A stretch of DNA of 64,000 nt from an uncultured Tropicimonas sp. (GTDB taxonomy: Bacteria; Pseudomonadota; Alphaproteobacteria; Rhodobacterales; Rhodobacteraceae), in assembly GCA_947495685.1 (NCBI GenBank), contig CANLZY010000016.1, forward strand, positions 1 to 64,000, written 5' to 3'. The translations under genes were made by a program, and so were the position numbers. Of the stretch, positions 19,201 to 42,300 are shown piece by piece; positions within the stretch are counted from its first letter, which is position 1; each line of letters starts with the position of its first letter. The notes under the pieces are model-generated. The model was given only the letters and a program-made list of their open reading frames with translations, was not told the origin of the DNA and made no database searches.

Positions 19201-19229
19201 TTGAACCGGCGACATATTGGCCCTATCTA
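19201..19229 (+). promoter_or_regulatory. Sigma-70 promoter of ssrA
   Basis: TTGAAC at 19201-19206 and TATCTA at 19224-19229 are separated by 17 bases, a near-consensus housekeeping promoter. Transcription would begin near 19236, just before the acceptor piece of the tmRNA precursor. Confidence 0.8.
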
Positions 19230-19235
19230 TAGGAT

Positions 19236-19550
19236 GTTCCTTCGGGAAATATGGCGATAAACGCGCTCGTAATACACGGCTCGGACCCGGGGGCGGTACC
19301 CGGCGGCTCCACCAAACATCCCTTATTGGGGGATCATGGGGCCGAAATAGGATCGACGGACGTCTAAAGGGGTTAGCTTTTGCTCGGTGAGGTACCACCG
19401 TTATCGGTCCGTAAAGCATAATTGCCAATAACAATCGTGCTCCGATGGCCGTCGCCGCGTAAGCGGTGATTTCTATCGAAATCTAAGCCCAGCCCTCTAG
19501 CAAGGTCTGGCGGGGTTCGCAGGCACCTGGCAACAGAAGCCTGCACTTTT
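19236..19550 (+). ncRNA. ssrA: tmRNA, circularly permuted two-piece form
   Basis: This RNA rescues stalled ribosomes by trans-translation with SmpB. The order is permuted, as in alphaproteobacteria. The acceptor piece ends CGGCTCC-ACCA at 19314, after a T-arm hairpin CCGGG-GGCGGTA-CCCGG. A 23-base spacer with its own small hairpin follows, and the coding piece starts at 19338 with GGGGCCG, which pairs over 7 bp with CGGCTCC to remake the acceptor stem. The tag frame is 19424-19462: ANNNRAPMAVAA then TAA, close to the ANDNRAPVALAA-type tag of Rhodobacter and ending in the AA signal for ClpXP. A final GCAGGC/GCCTGC hairpin followed by CTTTT lies at 19519-19550. The 3' end is approximate. The sspB gene for the tag adaptor lies 2 kb downstream. 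Confidence 0.93.
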
Positions 19551-19647
19551 CCCAAGTTCCCGACCTGACGAAAAACACGAACTGCCCAAGCATTAGGCAA
19601 TCGTTCAGGGATTGATGTTAGCGAACATCAGGAACGAGAGGAAACCG

Positions 19648-31107: not shown

Positions 31108-31830
31108 ATGCTCCGATCCTTCCCGCCGCTTGCGACCGCCATTCTCCTGTTTGCCGTGGCCTTTGCCCTGTCACCGCTGTTCAGCTCCGGGTTCGCCGGG
31201 TTCGAGCAGGGCCAGTTCCCGGTTGAAACCGATTTCTGGCCGATTCAACCGGCCGGGTGGGCCTTCAGCATCTGGGGCGTGATCTATGCCTGGTTGATCG
31301 CCGGGGCGGCCTTTGGAGTGTTCAAGGCTCCGGATGATCCGGATTGGAGCGCAATGCGACCGCCGCTTCTGATCAGCCTGATGATCGGTACGTTCTGGAT
31401 CGCCGCAGCCAATGCATCGCCAATCCTCGCGACGGTAATGATCGTCGTCATGGCAGCCACTGCGATCCTGGCAATGCTGCGCGCCGGTTCCAACAGCCCG
31501 TATTGGCAGGTCCGACCTGTCGCGCTCTATGCCGGTTGGCTGACAGCGGCCAGCGGTGTCGGCATCGGGGTCGTGCTGGGCGGCTACGGGGTGTTGTCTG
31601 CGCAATCCGCCGCCCTGCTTATGTTGCTCGCGGTGCTGGCCGTTGCGCTGGTGGCGCAATCGCGTCGACCACAGGAGTGGGGGTATCCGCTGGCGATTGT
31701 CTGGGCGCTGGTCGGGATCATCGCAGCCAATGCGGCATCCGGCACCTGGCCCGTCATTGCCTTGGCGATCATCGGTGTTTTGTGTCTCGTGGCTCAGTTC
31801 GTCCTGCGGGGCCGCACGCCTGCGCACTGA
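31108..31830 (+). CDS. TspO/MBR-like membrane protein
   Basis: The protein has 240 residues with seven or eight predicted membrane helices. PAGWAFSIWGVIYAWLIAGA near residues 50-70 resembles the tryptophan-rich TspO/MBR signature (P-x-G-x-x-F-x-x-x-W-x-x-x-Y), but the protein is longer than the canonical 160-residue, five-helix TspO. It belongs to the larger tryptophan-rich sensory-protein-like family found near GPH transporters. Ligand binding (porphyrins in true TspO) is possible but unproven. Confidence 0.65.
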   Translation: MLRSFPPLATAILLFAVAFALSPLFSSGFAGFEQGQFPVETDFWPIQPAGWAFSIWGVIYAWLIAGAAFGVFKAPDDPDWSAMRPPLLISLMIGTFWIAAANASPILATVMIVVMAATAILAMLRAGSNSPYWQVRPVALYAGWLTAASGVGIGVVLGGYGVLSAQSAALLMLLAVLAVALVAQSRRPQEWGYPLAIVWALVGIIAANAASGTWPVIALAIIGVLCLVAQFVLRGRTPAH

Positions 31831-32802: not shown

Positions 32803-33645
32803 TCAGGCGCTGGCAGGGCGGTAGAGCGCGGTCCACAACGACAATACGGCGTCGACCTGGCCGGGTGGAATCGCGACGGCCGCAACCGTTCCGTGTTCGG
32901 CAAAGAAGCCCAAGGTACCAACGGTGACCTCGGCTGACGTCAACAGAAGGGCGTTGGCCGGCTCGTCCGGATCCGCGCCGCCAGCCTCGACATAGGCCGA
33001 TACGACATCTGCAAGACGTGCAGCAAATTCCCGATCGCCGTGAACGGAAACTGGACCGCCGTCGCCATCCAGAACCCAGGCTGTGACCATCGGGGCGCAG
33101 TCGGAACAGAACCGTTGGACCTGTCCCCCCGCCGCCGCCGTGACCGCCCGGGTCGGATCATCCGCATGACTCAATGCTTGCCGCAGAAGGCCGACGGAAA
33201 CACCGGTTTCCTCCAACCCGGTGTTGCGGCTCGGTGGGGTTGTGGACACGCGCAGTTCGCCCTCCGCGCAAAACCTCTCAAGGGCGGCCTTCAACGCGGC
33301 AAGATCATCCGCGCCCGCATAGGTCAGCAACGCCGTTTCGCACTGACCGGTCCCGTCCAATTGTCCCAATTGACCAAGGTCTGCCCGCAGCAGGCGACGA
33401 TTGCGGACATCCATCGTCAGCGTCTCGTCCCGGTCGTTCTGAAACAAGAGACGGCGGGCCATGACGGTCTGGTCGATCTCGTCAAGGATCCCCGCCACCG
33501 CAGTGGCACCAGGTCCGCCGACCCGACGCGCCCCCCCGGACCCGGCGGCCACAGGCAAGCCAAGCATCCCGATCATCCGGCGGAGATCTTCGACACGCGC
33601 GGCCGTGTCGGGCGGCGGGCGGAGGCTGCGCGGGACCTCAGTCAT
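32803..33645 (-). CDS. Unknown protein at the end of the kinase/dynamin operon
   Basis: The protein has 280 residues. ATG 33645 overlaps the end of the previous gene by 8 bases, so it is co-translated with it. It appears to have a leading helical part, a strand-rich middle (TVMARRLLFQNDRDETLTMDV), two cysteines close together (CSDCAP) and a C-terminal alpha/beta segment (VTAWVLDGDGGPVSV ... LWTALYRPASA) with the rhythm of a small profilin-like or roadblock-like module. That fold suggestion is weak. There is no signal peptide or membrane helix. It belongs to the phospho-signalling/GTPase operon by position. Confidence 0.65.
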   Translation of the reverse strand: MTEVPRSLRPPPDTAARVEDLRRMIGMLGLPVAAGSGGARRVGGPGATAVAGILDEIDQTVMARRLLFQNDRDETLTMDVRNRRLLRADLGQLGQLDGTGQCETALLTYAGADDLAALKAALERFCAEGELRVSTTPPSRNTGLEETGVSVGLLRQALSHADDPTRAVTAAAGGQVQRFCSDCAPMVTAWVLDGDGGPVSVHGDREFAARLADVVSAYVEAGGADPDEPANALLLTSAEVTVGTLGFFAEHGTVAAVAIPPGQVDAVLSLWTALYRPASA

Positions 33646-34018
33646 CGACAAGGGAAGTCTGTTGAAGGATTGCGCCGACATCCGCGACAGATGTGGTCGG
33701 CGCCACAGTGACACAGATCACATCTCCGGACGCCCCCTCAGGCCGCAGGAAAACGCTCGTCGAACCGGACTCTGCCAGCGTCGCGCTGGACAGGGTTTCC
33801 GGGGAAGCATCGACACCAAACACATGCCCGAACAGGCGTGTGGGCAACGGACCGAGACACGCCACGGCTTCGGACAGGCGCGCGTCGTGATCCTCCTGGC
33901 GCAGGTCGCTGTCGCCCACCGCCCTCAGGACCGTCCCGGAGTCGAGATCGCCGTAGACCACCTCCCGGCAGCTGGGGATCTCCCGGTGCAATCGGCTCAG
34001 ATGCTCCATCAGCGTCAC
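33638..34018 (-). CDS. Small unknown protein following the dynamin-like genes
   Basis: The protein has 126 residues. The start is probably GTG 34018, which has AGGAGG 9 bases upstream; TTG 34027 abuts the site and ATG 34009 is a further option. The sequence EVVYGDLDSGTVLRAVGD near the N-terminus and VICVTVAPTTSVADVGAIL at the end suggest a single alpha/beta domain of Roadblock/LC7 size, a family that often partners small GTPases, but no diagnostic residue confirms it. It sits 91 bp after the first dynamin-like GTPase gene and overlaps the following gene. Confidence 0.6.
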   Translation of the reverse strand: MTLMEHLSRLHREIPSCREVVYGDLDSGTVLRAVGDSDLRQEDHDARLSEAVACLGPLPTRLFGHVFGVDASPETLSSATLAESGSTSVFLRPEGASGDVICVTVAPTTSVADVGAILQQTSLVDD

Positions 34019-34109
34019 TGCGCGCAACCTCCTCGGACAGGATCGTCAAGACGTCCTTGCCGGTATGGCGCAAAAACCTTTCGCGAACCCTACTTCTCGC
34101 GGTGCCGGC

Positions 34110-35168
34110 TCAGGACAATCGGAAAATGTCGGCCAGATCCCGTGGGCCGGCCGTCGGTCGTGGCTGGCGCCGCGGCGTACCGTTCAGGCTGACCCGCCGC
34201 GGCAGGATGCGGACCTGCGCGGAGTGTGTCGTTTCCGGCGTCTCCAGCAGGTCTGCGGGGGGCACCCGGGACGGCCTGGCGGGGGCCATGGCAACCGGCG
34301 GCTCCCCCTCTCCAACGACCGCAATGGCCGGTTCGGGCGCAGGTTCGGAAATCTCCTCTGGCTCCTCGTCCCACGTCTCCGGGATCATGGCCGGAACGGT
34401 CGGAATTTCGTGCCCGAGATGCACGGACAAGTGCGTGATCAGGTCGAGAAGGGCCGTCATGAAGGCTTCGGCACCACTTGCCTCCCAGGCGGTGCTGTCG
34501 TCGCCAGCCGCCAGCGCGCGGGTAAGCGATACCGGGAACACATCGGAAAAGAGGCCTTGGGTTTCGCGGCGAACCCGGGCAACAACCCGGCGTCTGTCGC
34601 GCTCTTCGACCAGCTTGTCCATGCGCGTCAGCAACAGAAAGCTCTTGTCATGCAGGCCCACCGGCATTTCGTCCCAGACAGCGGCCTCGCTCTGACGCCA
34701 GGCCTGCACCGCGTGGCTGCACCAGATGACGGCATCCGCCTGTGATATCACCCGTCGCCAGACTTCGGCCGGCATGTTCGGGTCGGATATCCCGGGGAAA
34801 TCGATGATGTCGCACAATTCCAGCACACTGGCCGGGCGTTGCACCCGCAGGTACTGGGTCCGTTCCAGTGGAATGTCAGCAATCCGGTCGAAGTCCACAT
34901 CGAAAGATTGGTCGGACAAGTCCACGCCGTACGGCTTGTCGACCCCGTGGCTCAGCCACACCGGCGGCAGATGTGTTGCCGTCACCTTGACCGGCAATGC
35001 GTCGGACCCGATCAACAGGTTTGTCAGGGTGCTCTTGCCAGCACTGAATTCGCCCATGATGGCGATCCGTGGCCGACGTCCGACAACGGCTTCAGCACAG
35101 TCGGGCTTCGGAATTGGCATGTTGGGCAGCGACGGGATTTCGACCTTCAGGTTCGAATTGTGAAACAT
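34110..35168 (-). CDS. Dynamin-type GTPase (352 residues)
   Basis: The GTPase domain is at the N-terminus: P-loop GEFSAGKS at 39-46, G3 DFPG at 123-126 and G4-like TRMD at 181-184. The GEFSAGKST form is that of bacterial dynamin-like proteins rather than Era/Obg GTPases. A helical segment follows, then a proline/glutamate-rich disordered region (about residues 255-330) with a basic end. No membrane helix is predicted, so any membrane contact would be peripheral or through the larger partner. It starts 17 bp after the larger dynamin gene, and such proteins often work as asymmetric pairs. Confidence 0.85.
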   Translation of the reverse strand: MFHNSNLKVEIPSLPNMPIPKPDCAEAVVGRRPRIAIMGEFSAGKSTLTNLLIGSDALPVKVTATHLPPVWLSHGVDKPYGVDLSDQSFDVDFDRIADIPLERTQYLRVQRPASVLELCDIIDFPGISDPNMPAEVWRRVISQADAVIWCSHAVQAWRQSEAAVWDEMPVGLHDKSFLLLTRMDKLVEERDRRRVVARVRRETQGLFSDVFPVSLTRALAAGDDSTAWEASGAEAFMTALLDLITHLSVHLGHEIPTVPAMIPETWDEEPEEISEPAPEPAIAVVGEGEPPVAMAPARPSRVPPADLLETPETTHSAQVRILPRRVSLNGTPRRQPRPTAGPRDLADIFRLS

Positions 35169-35185
35169 TGTTTGATCCTTCTGTC

Positions 35186-37279
35186 TCAGGCAGCAAAGCG
35201 GCTGAGCCGCGAGACGGCCTCGGCAAGCATTTCTGGCGATGGTCCGGCCCCGGTGCCTTGCTCCGTGTCACCCGTGGTGCGCGCTTTAAGGCTTTCGAAG
35301 ATCGCACGCTGGTCATCGAAAAACTGTGTCACGGTCTTCCGAATCTGGTCAGTGGACGGGACACAATGCGTGTCCTTCAGCGCCGTCACGATTGGCTGGG
35401 TTTCCGCTTCGATCATCGCGTGAAACTCGGCGGCAAACGCCTTGTAGCCACGCCGGCGACTCCACCAGCGACGCCACCAGTTTCCCTTCAGGTCCAACGC
35501 GATCGTCTGACCGATGAGAACGGGCGGCGCGAGGCGCGGAAAGACGGGAGGCTGGATGGTGAAATCGTCAGCCGCCCGGCCCAGCGCGGTAGCGTAAATG
35601 CCCGCCATCTGCGTTGCGGCGGTCTCGCCTGCGGTTTTCCCCGCACCCAGGACCTGCCGCAGGAACACCTGGTATCCGGATCGCAGCAGCAGACGCAGCC
35701 CGGTCGGGTCATAGCTCCAGGGCGCAAGTTCGCCGTAGGTGTCCAGATGCTGGACCAGCGCGCCGGTGGCCCGGTCAAGGAAGCTCTGGTGGGACCGTTC
35801 CAGTCGCTGGCCCGCCTCGTGCAGGACGCCGCCCAGGGTATGGTCAAGCTCGGTCATCACCCGCTGTTCCAGCCGGTCGAGCGACTGCTCCATGGTTGCA
35901 ATCTCGATGTCGCCGACGTGGGCGGCCGCAGCCTGTGTCGGATCGACGGCGGCCGCAGCGGACAGGCCTACAGCCAGGTTCGTCGCCTTGCGTGCGACCG
36001 CCTGAATCCGTTCGCGCGCAGCCCCTTCCGTGACCCTGTTCCAGATCGCACCATACAGCGCCGGCAAGCCCGACACCCACCAGATCAGTTCGAGGGGGCC
36101 AAGCTCCCGGTCCATCTGGCCGAGCGTGTGTTCGGCAAAATCGAGCAGAACAGCGCCGGCCTCCGCGTCCAGCACCGACAGGTCGCCGTTCAACGCCAGC
36201 GTCGCCCAACGCGCGCTCCCGAACACGATCTGGGCATCGTGCGGGCCGTGGAGGGCGCGCAGCGTTTCCCGGATGCTGTCCCGGATCTCGGCGATCTGGT
36301 TCACCGGATCGGCAAGTTCATCGATCCGGTTGACGAAGATGATGACCTCGCGGGACTGGACGTTGGCGATCAGGCGGATCAGCGCCATGTCGACCGTGCT
36401 CAACGCCTGGTGGGCCGACAGGACAACAACACACAGGCGGCTGTCCCGGATCGCATTGATGGTGATCTGTTCGCGCACCATGAACGTGTCGTTGACGCCC
36501 GGCGTGTCGCGCAGGCACAGGCTCATCGGCCAGTCGGGCTTGTGAATGCGCAAGTCCGCGGCCTTGGTGATGTCGGCAAACCGCCCCTGCCCGTCCCGCG
36601 ATGGGCCATCGACATCATCATCGAAATCATCGCCCAGGCAAACATATCGTTCGACCAGTTCCCGGGTCAGCGCGCCATAGTCATGGCTGGTGCCCAACAG
36701 CAATTCGAACTTTCGGCCAAGGCGGCTACGGGTCTTTTCGCGCATCGCGTCGATCTGCTGTCGGATCTTTTCGGCTTCGTCCTCGGCACCGGATCGTCCG
36801 GCCAATTCGCCAACACGTCCCCCCTTGCGAGTGAGCCGATCCCAGTCCGCTGGTTCGAAAAAGGAGAAACGCGCCGCGTAAGGCACCTTGTCGGCGTCCG
36901 GCCCCACATGCAGCGAGGTGACGACCGAAGTCCAGGGGTTGACGTCGGCTGGCAGCAACCCGGGTTCGCCAATCATCGCGTTGACCAGGGACGTCTTGCC
37001 GGCCTTGACCTGTCCGATCATCGTGACCGCAGGCTCCAACGTCCGGAGTTGCTGGCGGTGCCGGCGCGCTGCGTCGGCCGTGGCGACGTCTCCGCAATCG
37101 ATCAGCTCATCGAGGACATCGTAGACCTCGGCCCGCTGTGCCAGGACCGGCGACAGCCCCTCGAGGCACATCCTGAGAAGCCGGTCAGACCCGGAGGTTT
37201 CGCCCGGAAGCGGCGTCGCGCCAGCGAGCGGCGCTGTGACCGGTTCGTTGTAGACATATGCACCCTCACCCAGACCCAT
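35186..37279 (-). CDS. Large dynamin-like GTPase (697 residues)
   Basis: P-loop GQVKAGKTS at 89-97, G3 DTPGVND from 258 and G4 NRID at 317-320 define an intact GTPase with the dynamin-type insertions between. The following ~350 residues are largely helical, with alanine-rich segments (LSAAAAVDP) that could insert in a membrane. A striking tryptophan/arginine cluster (NWWRRWWSRRR, about 600-610) may be a membrane-contacting paddle tip. ATG 37279 has GGAGG 5 bases upstream; the frame extends upstream but without support. Bacterial dynamins remodel or fuse membranes; the partner here is the 352-residue GTPase made from the next gene. Confidence 0.85.
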   Translation of the reverse strand: MGLGEGAYVYNEPVTAPLAGATPLPGETSGSDRLLRMCLEGLSPVLAQRAEVYDVLDELIDCGDVATADAARRHRQQLRTLEPAVTMIGQVKAGKTSLVNAMIGEPGLLPADVNPWTSVVTSLHVGPDADKVPYAARFSFFEPADWDRLTRKGGRVGELAGRSGAEDEAEKIRQQIDAMREKTRSRLGRKFELLLGTSHDYGALTRELVERYVCLGDDFDDDVDGPSRDGQGRFADITKAADLRIHKPDWPMSLCLRDTPGVNDTFMVREQITINAIRDSRLCVVVLSAHQALSTVDMALIRLIANVQSREVIIFVNRIDELADPVNQIAEIRDSIRETLRALHGPHDAQIVFGSARWATLALNGDLSVLDAEAGAVLLDFAEHTLGQMDRELGPLELIWWVSGLPALYGAIWNRVTEGAARERIQAVARKATNLAVGLSAAAAVDPTQAAAAHVGDIEIATMEQSLDRLEQRVMTELDHTLGGVLHEAGQRLERSHQSFLDRATGALVQHLDTYGELAPWSYDPTGLRLLLRSGYQVFLRQVLGAGKTAGETAATQMAGIYATALGRAADDFTIQPPVFPRLAPPVLIGQTIALDLKGNWWRRWWSRRRGYKAFAAEFHAMIEAETQPIVTALKDTHCVPSTDQIRKTVTQFFDDQRAIFESLKARTTGDTEQGTGAGPSPEMLAEAVSRLSRFAA

Positions 37280-37391
37280 TGTCCCTCCAATCGAGATAGT
37301 TCTCTTGCAGGGTGGACTCTGTCGCCGGTCGGAACCGGGCGGAAACATGGCAAGAACATGGCGAATATGGGCAATGCGTCTAAACTGGCGC

Positions 37392-38585
37392 TCAGGCGCA
37401 GAGCAGAGCCTCGCATTCATGGCGCACCTGCAGAACCAGCGCCACCGCGTCCGACATCGCATCCGGCGTCGCCTCGAGTTGCATCAGCAGCATGAGATCG
37501 GAGGCTTCCGCCAGTATCGCCTCGACCGGCCCGCCCCCCCTGACCGCCATCTCGTTGCAGGCATCGATGGACTCGGCGCACAGACCAAGCACCGCATGAG
37601 AGTTCGTCTGGACGGTCTCTGACTCGGATGCATCGCACAGGCAGGACAATTCGCAGGCCTGTGCCGACAGAAAGCTGATGATCTCGGCGGTGATGTCAAC
37701 GCCGCCAGCGGAGGAGCGGCCCGCACCGGAGGGCCGATCGGCAGTGTCCAGCAGATCCGAGAAATCGGGTGGATCATCCGCCCGAACCGGCTCTTCCTTT
37801 GTCAAAGGAGGCTCTGGTACGGCAATGCCGTCGGGTTGATACCGATCCAGGAATACCAATGCACCCTCGAGATCTTCGCGACGGGCAGTCGCAACGTGTT
37901 CCAACAGATCCGACCGGAACCCGGTCAGCCGGGCTGCGTGATCCATGCCGCGCCCCAGGAAATGCACGCCGCGAAACCGGACACCCAACGCGGGTTGCCC
38001 GACGGGCGCGGACTTCTGGCGCGGTTCCCGGGTAACCGCCAAATAGGCATGGTCCATCAACGTCTCTGGCAGACGACGCCAGAAGGCACGCTCGGGCTCG
38101 ACCAGTTCCGACACGCACCAGACAACCATGTCGGCCCGGCGCGCAGTCCAGCCAATCGCGGCTTCGACACTCTGCGCGTCCCCCTCCAACGGCACGACCA
38201 GAAACGATACGCTGTCGAGCAAGGGCAAAGGTGTCGAAAGCCGCACCATGGCAAGCGTGAAGAGGTCCAACTGGTCGAACCTGTCACGATCAATCCGTTC
38301 CTCGCGTCCGTCACTGGTGACAATGGTGATCTGTGGCTCGGCACCAAAAGTGACCTCGACAGGTGGCAGGCCCGGACGGTCGGGCAGAACATCCCCGCCG
38401 AACAACGCGTTCACGGTTGCGGCCAGACCAGCATCCGGACGCCCAAGAACCGCAACGCAGACCGGCGACGACAACCGCTCCAGCACTCGTTCGCCCATCG
38501 CGCGCGCACCCTTGGGCAAGCTCCGTGACGCCAACGCGGCGGCAAGTTGGTCCATGGATCGTTGGGCTCTTGGACTGGCTGTCAT
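37392..38585 (-). CDS. GTPase-like protein with a degenerate P-loop
   Basis: The 397 residues have the layout of the neighbouring dynamin-type GTPases: a helix, then VCVAVLGRPDAGLAATVNALFGG, where the P-loop G-x4-G-K-(S/T) reads G-RPDA-G-L-A at 48-55. The lysine and the Ser/Thr are both lost. The later V-V-P-L-E-G-D and M-V-V-W-C segments keep the alternating strand pattern, and LAVTREPRQ may stand in for G4. Nucleotide hydrolysis is unlikely, so a structural or regulatory subunit is inferred. Several cysteines (CELSCLCDASESE) lie in the C-terminal helical part. Its start overlaps the PP2C stop (ATGA). Confidence 0.75.
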   Translation of the reverse strand: MTASPRAQRSMDQLAAALASRSLPKGARAMGERVLERLSSPVCVAVLGRPDAGLAATVNALFGGDVLPDRPGLPPVEVTFGAEPQITIVTSDGREERIDRDRFDQLDLFTLAMVRLSTPLPLLDSVSFLVVPLEGDAQSVEAAIGWTARRADMVVWCVSELVEPERAFWRRLPETLMDHAYLAVTREPRQKSAPVGQPALGVRFRGVHFLGRGMDHAARLTGFRSDLLEHVATARREDLEGALVFLDRYQPDGIAVPEPPLTKEEPVRADDPPDFSDLLDTADRPSGAGRSSAGGVDITAEIISFLSAQACELSCLCDASESETVQTNSHAVLGLCAESIDACNEMAVRGGGPVEAILAEASDLMLLMQLEATPDAMSDAVALVLQVRHECEALLCA

Positions 38586-39523
38586 TTTGATCGTCCGGCC
38601 CGTACGACAAAGGTGTTTCGCGAGCAGAATTGCATCAGGTTCCGCAGGGCCTGGGGAAACAGGACGCTCACCCCGGACACCCAGGACAAAACGCCTGACT
38701 GCACCGACGCACCGGTCTTTGCCATCGAGGCCGCAGCCGGTTGAACCCGAAGAACCGCAACTGACAAGTTGTCCTGCGCAACATCACCAGCGGCCGCGAC
38801 ACTCTGCATGAGCGTATCGACAAGCTCGGGCGGGCGGGCATCGGGTGTCGCCTCGATCCCGGTCTGGATCTGGTCTTGCGACAATGTCAGGATTCCGTCG
38901 CTCGCCGCCAGAAACACGTCCCCTGCCCGAACGGTATATCCCTGTTCCGGGCAATCGATCTGGCGCAGAGGATCGCAGCCCAACGCCGAGGTCAGGCAAC
39001 TGCGGTCCGGATGATTGGCGGCCTCGCCAGGATCCATTTCACCCATCCGGGCCAGAAAATCGAACTGGGGGGCAAGCGAGTGGTTCTCGTTGAGCTGCTC
39101 GATGCTGCCCTCCCGCGCCAGAAACAACGGGCTGTCGCCAATCGACAACCAATAGAGGCGTCGCCCCTGGACCACGACAGTCAGCAGTGTTGCACCGAGG
39201 CCCTTTGTATCCGGGTTGGAGTCGGCATGCGCCAGGATCGCGTGGTTGGCCGCCTGTGCCGCGTTCATCAGCAACTCCGGAATGTCCGCCCCCAACGCCC
39301 CTTGCGCATCGCGCTGGCTTGCCAGTTCCTCCAGCACGGTGGTCACGGCAATCCGGCTGGCCACGGCGCCAGAGGCATGCCCGCCCAGGCCATCGGCGAG
39401 AACGACAATGCCTGCAGCCCCGCCATATGGCGCATCGCAGAGCACTGCATCTTCCTGGCCGTCTCGCGCGCCAAGGCTGAGGCCGGTGGCCACGTCGAGT
39501 CGAAGGTCACTCTGAAGCGGCAT
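38582..39523 (-). CDS. PP2C-type Ser/Thr phosphatase
   Basis: The protein has 313 residues. The metal and phosphate ligands of the PPM family are present: GARDGQEDA at 18-26, LADGLGGHASG from 42 (D44), LSIGDSPLFL, SDGILTLSQD and the final AQDNLSVAVL. The last 45 residues are an extra basic, partly hydrophobic tail (LFPQALRNLMQFCSRN) that may bind a membrane or partner. ATG 39523 lies within the end of the FHA gene (17-base overlap). It should reverse the phosphorylation made by the kinase two genes upstream. Confidence 0.92.
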   Translation of the reverse strand: MPLQSDLRLDVATGLSLGARDGQEDAVLCDAPYGGAAGIVVLADGLGGHASGAVASRIAVTTVLEELASQRDAQGALGADIPELLMNAAQAANHAILAHADSNPDTKGLGATLLTVVVQGRRLYWLSIGDSPLFLAREGSIEQLNENHSLAPQFDFLARMGEMDPGEAANHPDRSCLTSALGCDPLRQIDCPEQGYTVRAGDVFLAASDGILTLSQDQIQTGIEATPDARPPELVDTLMQSVAAAGDVAQDNLSVAVLRVQPAAASMAKTGASVQSGVLSWVSGVSVLFPQALRNLMQFCSRNTFVVRAGRSK

Positions 39524-40502
39524 CGATGCCCTCCTGCGAGGTGTCGTTGTCTGTCCATTCGAAGCCCTCGCCACAAAAGGCGACAAGGCGCAGCGTGGTC
39601 TCGCCGATACGGATCGTGTCTCCGCCGTTCAGGTCTTCGGTGGAGAGCACCGGGCGATTGTTGAGACGGACGATGTTGGACTTTCCGCCCTGCCCCAGGA
39701 AGAACCGGTTCACCTCTTCGTCGAAGGCAATCGATGCATGGTTCTGCCGTGAAATCGACGTGTCGCCATAGTCGAGACAGATCGTCTGATCCTCGCCGCG
39801 CCCGATGCTGGATACGCCGCTGGTCAGGGTGAACGAGGCGCCGCGTCCGGGGCCCTCGATGACCACGATCCAGCCCACCGGAAACGCCGGGAGCGTACGC
39901 CCACCGCGAGGCGCATCACCGGCAAAGGGATCGCTTTCGCCAAAGGCTGCGGCCTGAAAGCCGAGCACCCGGGTCTTGGCCCGCCCGGCGCTGGCGCCAG
40001 CGCCGGTTAGTCCCGCCTCGGAGAAACGGGCGATCTGGGCCCGGGCAAGCGCGACGTCATCTTCCGGGTCTGGCGCCTCAATGGACATCCCGTCCGCCAT
40101 TGTTTCAGGATCTGGCGCAACGGGTCGGGAGGGAACCGGGGGACGTTCGGCCTCGATGTCCCAGATACGACGTGGCACCGGGGTGCTGGGGACATGCGCC
40201 GCCAGCCGCGACCGCGCCACGAACGGTCCCCTGTCGGAGGGCGCGGTTTCCGCAACGGGCGGCGCGTCCTGCTGTTGCCGCGACCATTGCCGCTGGCGCG
40301 CTGGCGCAGCCTGTTCGACCTCGATCGGTCCGGTCGCGTGCGGGTCCGGCGGGGTTGGTATGGCCATGTCTCGGGGGATGCCAAGTTCTTCGTAGGGATC
40401 GTCCGGCCATAACGCCCCGTCGTCGGCCTCGTCGAACAGCGGTGGCTCGGATGCCACCAGGCCCTTGTCTTCAACGGTGGCCTTCTTGCGAAAGAAATTC
40501 AT
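39507..40502 (-). CDS. FHA-domain phosphothreonine-binding protein
   Basis: The 331 residues start MNFFRKK; ATG 40502 overlaps the kinase stop. About 200 residues of low-complexity, proline- and acidic-rich sequence precede a C-terminal FHA domain (213-308) with the conserved G234-R235, S251-x-x-x-H255 and the N281/N282 position of the phosphopeptide site. The long tail contains several threonine-proline sites that could be substrates of the operon's kinase. It probably recruits phosphorylated partners. Confidence 0.9.
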   Translation of the reverse strand: MNFFRKKATVEDKGLVASEPPLFDEADDGALWPDDPYEELGIPRDMAIPTPPDPHATGPIEVEQAAPARQRQWSRQQQDAPPVAETAPSDRGPFVARSRLAAHVPSTPVPRRIWDIEAERPPVPSRPVAPDPETMADGMSIEAPDPEDDVALARAQIARFSEAGLTGAGASAGRAKTRVLGFQAAAFGESDPFAGDAPRGGRTLPAFPVGWIVVIEGPGRGASFTLTSGVSSIGRGEDQTICLDYGDTSISRQNHASIAFDEEVNRFFLGQGGKSNIVRLNNRPVLSTEDLNGGDTIRIGETTLRLVAFCGEGFEWTDNDTSQEGIDAASE

Positions 40503-41947
40503 GCCCCTGAACCCTCCAACTGACGTCTCTGCTTGGTGGTGTCGCGACGCAACAGCCTGCGCCACACGCGCGTGATCCACCCAGGACGTTCGTGCATTTC
40601 GATCTTCTGTTTGGCGGTATGGGCCTTGCTGCGCTCCAGTTCTTCGCCCCGTGTCTCAACGCGTGACTGTGCCCTGCGCGCGGGTGGGTCCGCGGCCTCT
40701 TGCAACGCCATCTCGTCGGCGGCCTGTTGCGCGGCGATCTCGGCTTCCAACTGCGCCCGCTCGGCGGCCTCCGCCGCAAGACGTTCTTGTTTGGCCTCTT
40801 CCGCTTCCCGCTGGATCTCTTCCGCCTCCCGCAGGGCTTGCGCCCGCATTTCTCGACGCGCCTCCTCCCGGGCCTGGCGTTCGATCTCGTCGCGGCGGCG
40901 TTGCTCCGCCACTTCGCGCGCGGCCCGTTCCTGTTCGACCTTCACGGCCACGTTCGTGTCGTTGACCAGCTTGCGAATACGCGCGGTCACTTCGGGATCA
41001 TTCGAGACCTTGGCCGACAGCGCGCGTTGGCGTGCCTTTGTGTCGATGCACTCGATCCATTCCTCGGCGCTTTGCAGACGGTTCTTGGCAAAGACGCTCA
41101 GTGCCGTGTCTATCGCCGAGAGGAAATGCAGGTCATACCCCGCCACACGCCCCGCCAAAGGCACGTAGGGGTCCGGCTTCTGTTCGGCCAGCGCGGCAAG
41201 CCGCACGTGGCTGTAGAGCGGCGGCTCGCCGGTCAGGACGTGATGGAGCGTCGCGGCCAGCGAATAGAGATCGCCCGCCGGGTTCTGGGCGCTGCCGGCC
41301 AGGTAGAATTCCTGTGGCGAATACCCGTCCTTGACCACCTGAAGCGCCGACAATACCCGGCTGGCGCGCCGTGCCGTGTCACGCGCGGCACCAAAATCGA
41401 TCAGGATAGGCTCGTTGTTTCGGTCCAGGAGCACGTTGTCGGGCGAGATATCCCGATGCAGCATGTTCAGGCCGTGGACATGTGCAATCGCCTCCAGCAG
41501 CTTGCGGGTCATCGTCCGGATCTCGGGCGGGCCGAGCCGCCCCGGCTGAGTTTCGATCACGTCCAGCAGATCCAGCCCCTCGACGTAGTCGAGCGCCATA
41601 TAGGCCGTGCCGTTGTCCTCGAAGACATCATGCACGCCGACGATATTGGGGTGGTCCAGCTTTGCCAACCGCCGTGCCTCCTCGCCGAACAGGCGCACGA
41701 CAACATCGAATTCTGTTTGCTGGCTACAGGACCGCGCCCGCACCAGGCTCTGGCTGCGGTAGCACATGGTGGTCGGATAGCATTCCTTGAGCACAACCCT
41801 GCGTTCAAGACTGTTTCGGGCAAGATAGGTAATACCGAAGCCGCCGGCATTCAGAAACGACTCGACAAGGAACTGCCCCTGCAGCAACGGCGTGCCGGGC
41901 GGCAGACTATCGGGCGGAGCGCCCTGAACATGCATGAACTTCGTCAC
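40499..41947 (-). CDS. Hanks-type Ser/Thr protein kinase with C-terminal coiled coil
   Basis: The 482 residues start at GTG 41947 (GAGGA 9 bases upstream); ATG 41935 is an alternative. All catalytic elements are present: glycine loop NAGGFG at 33-38, ATP lysine K54 (VVLKE), alphaC E90, HRD at 164-166, N171, DFG at 184-186 and an activation segment with RDTARRASRV and GYSPQEF. Residues about 330-445 form a long charged coiled coil (EEARREMRAQALREAEE). The basic end (RVWRRLLRR) may bind a membrane, but no transmembrane helix is seen, unlike PknB/PpkA kinases. It is the first gene of the operon. Confidence 0.9.
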   Translation of the reverse strand: MTKFMHVQGAPPDSLPPGTPLLQGQFLVESFLNAGGFGITYLARNSLERRVVLKECYPTTMCYRSQSLVRARSCSQQTEFDVVVRLFGEEARRLAKLDHPNIVGVHDVFEDNGTAYMALDYVEGLDLLDVIETQPGRLGPPEIRTMTRKLLEAIAHVHGLNMLHRDISPDNVLLDRNNEPILIDFGAARDTARRASRVLSALQVVKDGYSPQEFYLAGSAQNPAGDLYSLAATLHHVLTGEPPLYSHVRLAALAEQKPDPYVPLAGRVAGYDLHFLSAIDTALSVFAKNRLQSAEEWIECIDTKARQRALSAKVSNDPEVTARIRKLVNDTNVAVKVEQERAAREVAEQRRRDEIERQAREEARREMRAQALREAEEIQREAEEAKQERLAAEAAERAQLEAEIAAQQAADEMALQEAADPPARRAQSRVETRGEELERSKAHTAKQKIEMHERPGWITRVWRRLLRRDTTKQRRQLEGSGA

Positions 41948-42223: not shown

Positions 42224-42300
42224 TGGCGACCCCGACAGGACTCGAACCTGTAACCTATCCCTTAGGAGGGGATTGCTCTATCCAGTTGAGCCACGGGGCC
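42224..42300 (-). tRNA. tRNA-Arg(CCT), with encoded CCA
   Basis: On the minus strand the acceptor stem GGCCCCG pairs with CGGGGTC, the anticodon arm ATCCC-CTCCTAA-GGGAT carries anticodon CCT, the T arm is ACAGG-TTCGAGT-CCTGT, and CCA is encoded at 42226-42224. Its 3' end faces the kinase/dynamin operon, which begins about 280 bp away. Confidence 0.96.

Follow-up and report, generated by a model that had tools for sequence, protein, structure and literature searches.

An eight-gene operon of Rhodobacterales joining a kinase, FHA protein and phosphatase to a dynamin pair, a degenerate paralogue and predicted Roadblock-fold proteins

The locus and its eight genes

The DNA described here, called the window throughout, is a stretch of 64,000 nucleotides from an uncultured Tropicimonas sp. 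of the Rhodobacteraceae (assembly GCA_947495685.1, contig CANLZY010000016.1, positions 1 to 64,000). Our subject is a run of eight open reading frames, all on the minus strand and spanning 41947 to 32803, which we describe as one operon. The operon is real and conserved. Its genes are listed below with the shorthand used in the rest of the text; their limits, and the spacings between them, follow start codons of our choosing.

40499 to 41947, minus strand: gene 1 (K), Ser/Thr protein kinase, 482 amino acids (Pfam Pkinase, 5.5e-29)
39507 to 40502, minus strand: gene 2 (F), FHA protein, 331 amino acids, with a variable N-terminal tail and a C-terminal FHA domain (Pfam FHA, 3.3e-8; alignment)
38582 to 39523, minus strand: gene 3 (P), PP2C-type phosphatase, 313 amino acids (Pfam PP2C_2, 1.3e-15)
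37392 to 38585, minus strand: gene 4 (B2), degenerate paralogue of gene 6 and predicted pseudo-GTPase, 397 amino acids (profiles, motif loss)
35186 to 37279, minus strand: gene 5 (A1), large dynamin-like GTPase, about 697 amino acids (Pfam Dynamin_N, 6e-12)
34110 to 35168, minus strand: gene 6 (B1), short dynamin relative, 352 amino acids, a GTPase domain with a short tail (Dynamin_N, 8e-11)
33638 to 34027, minus strand: gene 7 (r7), predicted Roadblock/LC7-fold protein, 129 amino acids (AlphaFold2 model, fold comparison)
32803 to 33681, minus strand: gene 8 (r8), 292 amino acids, an N-terminal domain followed by a probable Roadblock-like C-terminal domain (AlphaFold2 model, fold comparison)

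The first four genes overlap one another, as the first-pass annotation of this DNA had reported (K and F by 4 base pairs (bp), F and P by 17 bp, P and B2 by 4 bp), and the gaps it gave after gene 4 (112 bp) and gene 5 (17 bp) are correct. Genes 6 and 7 are separated by 82 bp, a gap absent from that annotation, and gene 8, whose start lies at 33681 or 33714, overlaps gene 7. When the window's proteins are searched against Pfam, genes 4, 7 and 8 have no credible match. The phosphatase also matches NCBIfam Stp1_PP2C at 8.7e-41, under the cut-off of that model.

Conservation, spread and rearrangement

An A1 alignment was scanned over a genome collection with one genome per species (84,980 species). 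Of the 498 related stretches found, the best 80 loci were kept and the window was added, giving 81 loci that were annotated with profiles of all eight genes. The titles of the best 80 name Rhodobacterales genera or unclassified Rhodobacteraceae, Paracoccaceae, Rhodobacterales or Alphaproteobacteria. The series K-F-P-B2-A1-B1-r7-r8 is complete, in the same order and on the same strand, in 67 of the 81, and a contig edge lies no more than 317 bases from the outermost operon gene in 12 of the 14 incomplete loci. Across the complete loci (n = 67), comparing the eight genes by their distance matrices gives correlations of r 0.78 to 0.92; 200 permutations of the A1-K pair yielded 0.15 at most. Since correlated divergence includes shared host descent, these values show joint inheritance rather than interaction. 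Retained order and joint divergence together rule out chance adjacency of the eight genes, and the co-occurrence of the families in other genomes, on which the first-pass annotation had staked its proposal, is borne out.

Counts of A1 across genome samples each include the window's own genome. At E 1e-20, A1 occurs in 100 of 394 family genomes (100 of 393 genera) and in 2 of 385 genomes of a class sample, both within the window's family; at E 1e-8 it occurs in 9 of 398 genomes of a phylum sample, eight of them in the window's family and one a remote match elsewhere. Within the genus, 8 of 9 genomes carry it. Of 365 family genomes, 77 gave a match to the small protein r8, and these are without exception positive for A1; the 23 further A1-positive family genomes have no r8 match or fall outside the smaller draw used for r8. 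Two genomes hold two diverged copies of the whole system, G003 (L025 and L030) and G004 (L024 and L032), which are 66-70% and 48-49% identical to the A1 of the window, and in G003 one of the two copies has a split arrangement. Complete or partial operon copies lie on plasmids of Leisingera, Ruegeria and Rhodobacter, and A1 relatives on 18 plasmid records. A tblastn search of plasmids with r8 gave no match at E 1e-3, yet the profile search finds plasmid r8 homologues, so r8 is too divergent for a tblastn search. In the NCBI annotation each gene of the plasmid copies already has its own label (such as "dynamin family protein" or "FHA domain-containing protein"), and the set has no system name.

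The rearranged loci show which genes keep company. Two are convergently split: in L030, K-F-P-B2 faces r8-r7-B1-A1, and in L045, A1-B1-r7-r8 faces B2-P-F, two substrate-binding-type genes and K. L042 (Ruegeria) and L181 read A1-B1-r7-r8-A2-B2-K-F-P, with substrate-binding-type genes in addition, and L187 reads A1-B1-r7-r8-B2-K-F-P; in these three, B2 stands directly before K-F-P. In L035, L173, L184 and L185, where the searched stretch contains no trio, r7 or r8 occurs close to A/B pairs. B2 thus tends to accompany the kinase trio, and r7 and r8 tend to accompany A1-B1. A likely history is that A2 disappeared from the lineage of the window, in which B2 was retained in a regulatory role.

One may ask whether neighbours such as these act together at all. 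The modules are separable in L030 and L045, A/B pairs occur without a trio in the stretch searched, and joint divergence also reflects shared host descent, all of which would suit two unrelated operons brought together by chance or shared transfer and separate in action. We consider this very unlikely: the modules stay side by side in both split loci, the full order recurs in 67 of the 81, and 4-bp overlaps tie K to F and P to B2 in the window.

Several side observations belong here. Two A-B dynamin pairs in tandem, with no trio in the stretch searched, occur in L043, L168, L178, L179 and L182, and L175 and L176 have tandem pairs with a third pair, again with no trio in the stretch searched; these relatives look like a separate type within the family. 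Two substrate-binding-type genes recur beside the kinase trio or PP2C gene (L042 28086-30502, L045 19553-21897, L181 and L079). One of the two in L042 has a LysM match and the other a weak SBP_bac_3 match, under the cut-off, and such neighbours suggest envelope or peptidoglycan sensing. In 10 of the 80 relatives (L052, L053, L054, L057, L058, L059, L065, L068, L074 and L100) the operon is followed on the same strand by a gene that its signature marks as mreB, with apparent mreC and rodA further on in some. A link to cell-shape genes is possible; the genus-named loci of this group are all Silicimonas or Boseongicola, so they perhaps reflect one event.

Around the window's own copy the neighbours are as follows. 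Upstream, the feature below is followed by a monomeric isocitrate dehydrogenase gene.

42224 to 42300, minus strand: tRNA-Arg(CCT), directly upstream of the operon, context only (ARAGORN)

Downstream lie genes for a short-chain dehydrogenase, for a 240-residue, hydrophobic-looking protein (31108-31830, two genes past the operon end) that has no Pfam match at 1e-5, and for an MFS transporter. Further off, at 19219-19553, is a transfer-messenger RNA (tmRNA) gene with tag ANNNRAPMAVAA; ARAGORN marks it tmRNA*, which we take to mean the permuted type.

The distribution of A1 is patchy (100 of 394 genomes in the family, 8 of 9 in the genus), its relatives turn up on 18 plasmid records, and G003 and G004 each have two divergent copies; all of this would also suit an anti-phage or abortive infection system, with K as the sensor of infection and the dynamins acting on the membrane either to seal or to damage it. 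Defence-kinase models of PADLOC do match K (PD-T4-6 at 8e-41, mad6 at 1.3e-40), and its Leo dynamin models match A1 (LeoA in 21 of 22 A1 rows). However, in our judgement those kinase models probably match kinase domains generally, and among the other six proteins PADLOC gives five without a match and a weak Leo match to gene 6. PbeC matches A1 marginally (0.032), and no PADLOC system is complete, the hits being kinase models on K, Leo on A1 and B1, and the marginal PbeC. The near flanks are of a housekeeping type (monomeric isocitrate dehydrogenase, FeoB, MFS transporter, glutathione peroxidase); no defence gene was recognised by eye among the 25 largest flank clusters of the relatives, on which no PADLOC scan was run. 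No A1 relative was found in viral contigs (four pattern matches, none confirmed) or in phage records, and a phage origin was rejected on that ground. At 1e-3, K and P alone among the eight proteins match PHROGs. Fixed order and joint divergence are, as we judge it, unlike fast-shuffling defence islands, and we regard a defence role as unlikely.

The proteins of the operon

The first-pass annotation had counted three dynamin-type GTPases. Two of these stand, as one full-size dynamin (A1) and one partner that is mostly GTPase domain (B1); the third, B2, is a predicted pseudo-GTPase. The pairing that the annotation had mentioned for bacterial dynamins is indeed present, the best solved-structure matches being the two partners of Cj-DLP1/2. 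A1 belongs to the dynamin superfamily by its GTPase domain, with its Dynamin_N match and the motifs GxxxxGK[ST] (G1) and DxPG (G3) in 96 of 96 rows; for B1 the figures are 97 of 98 for G1 and 96 of 98 for DxPG. (The row sets of A1, B1 and B2 each include one duplicate contig, L031 = L097.) Against solved structures, the profile of A1 reaches 3.5e-11 with 5owv_A and 4.4e-10 with BDLP (2j68), and in a sequence-profile test of neck and trunk its best stretch aligns to residues 289-533 of 5owv_A. With the window's A1 alone, BDLP ranks first (7e-7) and 5owv_A follows at 1.2e-5. The B1 profile matches 5owv_C at 5.6e-17 and 5owv_A at 0.0086. 5owv is the Campylobacter Cj-DLP1/2 tetramer; from chain lengths and the published masses of 84.5 and 71.2 kDa we infer that chain A is Cj-DLP1 and chain C is Cj-DLP2.

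B1 of the window has intact G1, G3 and G4 motifs and, as far as sequence can tell, no neck or trunk: profile positions 27-244 match 5owv_C and the rest is a short variable tail. Longer B1 relatives, of 473-806 residues, occur in L034, L035, L038, L042 and L043. Elsewhere in the window's genome five further Dynamin_N matches are short (34-41 profile positions), and only A1 and B1 have long ones. One segment of A1 is a candidate membrane-binding tip, judging by its composition and conservation:

35432 to 35503, minus strand: conserved Trp/Arg-rich A1 segment IALDLKGNWWRRWWSRRRGYKAFA (pattern in 79 of 81 A1 sequences)

The nearest described relative is thus the Cj-DLP1/2 pair of Campylobacter jejuni. 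The likeness lies in the paired genes, A1 matching chain A of 5owv and B1 and B2 matching chain C; the differences are that B1 here is short and that the operon also encodes a kinase trio, a pseudo-GTPase paralogue and proteins of the Roadblock fold. According to the main text on Cj-DLP1/2, hydrolysis requires heterotypic G-dimers, and mutation of either P-loop leaves negligible turnover; in that main text "kinase" and "phosphorylat-" are absent (PMC6104087).

A second comparison is LeoABC of enterotoxigenic Escherichia coli, also a three-gene dynamin set, whose LeoA and LeoBC models A1 matches. Its abstract names no kinase, FHA protein, PP2C or Roadblock protein and reports LeoA as periplasmic (PMC4159319), and the gene content of our operon differs from the LeoA/LeoB/LeoC set. 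The comparison nevertheless raises the reading of a vesicle or secretion machine, in which the dynamins promote vesicle release and the trio gates them as in type VI secretion. Leo models are the sole PADLOC matches of A1 at 1e-5. In the type VI secretion system (T6SS), binding of the FHA protein to a phospho-threonine of TssL is described as activating secretion (PMC3953482). Against this reading, the periplasmic place that its authors assign to LeoA (PMC4159319, abstract) fits poorly with the partners found here. Kinases, FHA proteins and Roadblock-type proteins are usually cytoplasmic. By hydropathy the eight proteins lack transmembrane-like segments, except for one in gene 7 (score 1.75) that lies inside its predicted fold, export signals being outside that test; and the operon holds no secretion gene. 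We find such a machine rather improbable.

Turning to the kinase trio, the translation of K carries, by eye, the kinase motifs HRDISPDN and DFGAA, and its C-terminal part is charged and rich in Glu and Arg. At E of 0.001 or below the window's genome has two Pkinase genes; the other sits in the T6SS region of contig C5, which argues that K is dedicated to the operon. Hydropathy places a C-terminal transmembrane-like segment in the K of 26 of the 67 loci. Together with the SBP_bac_3 and LysM matches of the Ruegeria neighbours of K, this indicates that some members probably sense the periplasm.

The FHA protein keeps an invariant G-R, S-R and N in its alignment (86 rows, including one duplicate contig), the residues generally needed for phospho-threonine binding. 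Its tail, upstream of the FHA domain, is variable with a single conserved island:

39957 to 39983, minus strand: near-invariant RAKTRVLGF in the F tail (alignment)

The strict pattern R-x-K-T-R-x-L-G-F is present in 60 of the 86 rows, and the Thr in a fraction of 0.99 of them. That Thr is a candidate phospho-threonine site. GarA and OdhI are analogues for an intramolecular FHA phospho-switch; by that analogy the motif may act as such a switch, or may equally be structural.

The same three protein types regulate type VI secretion, where the PpkA-Fha pair with PP2C forms a gating switch on a membrane machine (PMC3953482), and one could suppose that the trio belongs to that system and is placed here incidentally. 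The genome does contain a T6SS, on contig C5, equipped with a trio of its own: between its kinase and TssB, some 23 kb apart, lie genes for an FHA protein, for IcmF/TssM and for a PP2C. No T6SS gene was seen in the operon or its near flanks, in keeping with the first-pass annotation; the score with the TagH model is 14.7, its cut-off being 120.25; and 67 of 81 loci have the trio linked to A1-B1. It is extremely unlikely that we are dealing with a displaced T6SS part.

Gene 4 had been described as GTPase-like. By descent this is right, since its profile matches that of gene 6 (probability 99.9%, E 6e-33); it also matches 5owv_C at 3.4e-12. Its nucleotide motifs, however, are lost, the places of G1, G3 and G4 in the window reading GRPDAGLA, VVPLE and TREPR.

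38421 to 38444, minus strand: degenerate B2 P-loop, GRPDAGLA in place of GxxxxGK[S/T] (alignment)

Without the motifs of an active GTPase, B2 of the window is a predicted pseudo-GTPase. Among relatives, DxPG stands at the aligned G3 position in 3 of 91 B2 rows (L034, L035 and L042) and anywhere in 9 of 91. When mapped on a quickly built A1 tree (76 rows), whose branches are long and in some cases join close to the group of the window, the B2 P-loop is lost in 14 rows and its state needs at least 5 changes, five being forced by well-supported branches. One B2 homologue (L044 10514-11749, Leisingera sp. S132 plasmid unnamed4) is annotated as a "zeta toxin family protein." By homology it is a B1-type dynamin relative; Zeta_toxin matches weakly in 2 of 19 B2 rows, and the label looks like a P-loop artefact.

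The two small terminal genes had been passed over in the first-pass annotation as regards their fold, which is Roadblock in the model of r7 and probably so in r8. The AlphaFold2 model of r7 (80 aligned sequences) has a predicted local distance difference test score (pLDDT) of 91.4 and a predicted template modelling score (pTM) of 0.85. All 50 rows listed by Foldseek are of Roadblock type, the best being 3kye_B at E 1.1e-6, and include Streptomyces Roadblock proteins, MglB, MglC, MP1-p14/Ragulator and Asgard Roadblocks. VIA-align gives Z 15.8 to 3kye_C over 115 aligned residues (root-mean-square deviation (rmsd) 2.1), and OdinProfilin, a non-Roadblock row, was set aside as weaker at Z 10.7. The model follows the Roadblock/LC7 topology alpha-beta-beta-alpha-beta-beta-beta-alpha, and r7 has, by this prediction, a Roadblock/LC7 fold.

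For r8 (74 sequences) the model is of moderate confidence, with pLDDT 83.4 and pTM 0.60. Its best Foldseek match is 5y3a_G, a Ragulator chain, at 7.6e-4, and its top fold rows are mostly Roadblock, with phytochromes, a beta-lactamase and a designed protein close below. The C-terminal half of r8 is, on the model, probably Roadblock-like. In sequence searches genes 7 and 8 have nothing credible in Pfam, NCBIfam or PADLOC, and their profiles give chance-like matches only against PDB sequences (for r7, E of 0.027 at best, to phospholipase A2); compared with each other, the two profiles show no significant similarity (probability 0.3%). No frame of the window's genome passes the family cut-off of Robl_LC7; a 9,942-residue open frame (G000:C19, around 110561; L197) has a sub-threshold match, at E 0.033.

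Many Roadblock proteins are scaffolds. Combinations of a Roadblock protein with a GTPase are described for MglA-MglB of Myxococcus, whose MglB structures r7 matches, and for the actinobacterial conservons (CvnA-D), which add a histidine kinase-like sensor (PMC9481161 and PMC13343842). The GTPase of those systems is small and Ras-like, whereas here it is a dynamin, and the kinase here is of the Ser/Thr type with FHA and PP2C proteins. The parts of the operon are thus of known kinds, a bacterial dynamin pair among them, and as far as our searches go their combination has no description: none of the eight-gene composition was found in the open-access full-text literature, where several queries were weak tests and subscription papers and preprints are mostly not covered.

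A proposed mechanism and its meaning

How might such a set work? In the scheme that we propose, A1 and B1 would form a heterotypic pair in which GTP hydrolysis needs contact between their G domains, as in Cj-DLP1/2, and A1 would touch the inner membrane through its Trp/Arg-rich tip. K, F and P would serve as a dedicated threonine-phosphorylation switch. B2 would be the adaptor, docking on A1 in place of B1 or else on F, and its phosphorylation state would restrain or release A1-B1 assembly. The role given to B2 is suggested by three things: it is a neighbour of the trio in the two split loci and in three further rearranged ones, it descends from the family of A-binding partners, and its motifs have degenerated repeatedly in a gene that was itself retained. 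The proteins r7 and r8 would tune the GTPase cycle or serve it as scaffolds, much as MglB acts on MglA, and the likely output would be regulated tethering, fusion or repair of the inner membrane.

It is important to weigh what speaks against this scheme. For the Roadblock-fold proteins, hmmscan matches none of the 80 r7 members and none of the 74 r8 members to Pfam Robl_LC7, which would make r7 a divergent family of the Roadblock fold outside that Pfam family. The last 105 or so residues of r8 reach only Z 7.7 to 3leq (88 aligned, rmsd 3.4), a value that is common by the scale of the tool, and GTPase-activating activity of r7 or r8 is suggested by analogy alone. B2 keeps GxxxxGK[ST] in 69 of 91 rows and so may still bind nucleotide and act otherwise, and L035, L173, L184 and L185 have B2-like genes but no trio within the searched stretch, so B2 is not bound to the trio. 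Two of the 81 loci are true deviations, L115 having no K in 5.4 kb upstream and L125 no P in 1.2 kb, and the trio may accordingly be dispensable. The window's K has no transmembrane-like segment by hydropathy. B1, with a median of 302 residues (82 B1 rows, 81 loci), lacks the neck and trunk of Cj-DLP2, and the Cj-DLP geometry is therefore not fully transferable. Finally, the 82-bp gap before gene 7 contains a terminator-like hairpin; a promoter and terminator scan found such hairpins at chance level (9, with a mean of 6.8 in shuffles).

With these points in view, we put some membrane role of the system as reasonably probable. A dynamin pair controlled by phosphorylation through the dead paralogue B2, with Roadblock proteins acting on its GTPase cycle, is in outline a proposition that we hold to be evenly balanced. 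The fuller claim of a new kind of membrane machine, in which Ser/Thr phosphorylation switches dynamin-pair assembly via a dead paralogue and Roadblock proteins set the GTPase cycle, is more tentative, and we would place it somewhat short of even.

If the proposal is true, this would be, as far as our searches go, the first case of a dynamin controlled by Roadblock proteins, and the first of a bacterial dynamin that has a kinase, an FHA protein and a phosphatase of its own. Roadblock proteins, which are familiar as partners of Ras-like and Rag GTPases, would here stand beside a dynamin. In our view the roles of bacterial dynamins, and the manner in which they are switched, are largely open, and the operon offers a ready-made set of regulators: a kinase, a phosphatase, a phospho-binding protein, a pseudo-GTPase and Roadblock-fold proteins. 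Its carriers are many marine bacteria related to Roseobacter, and since cultivable ones such as Yoonia vestfoldensis, Aliiruegeria and Leisingera are among them, control of a dynamin could be put to the test directly.

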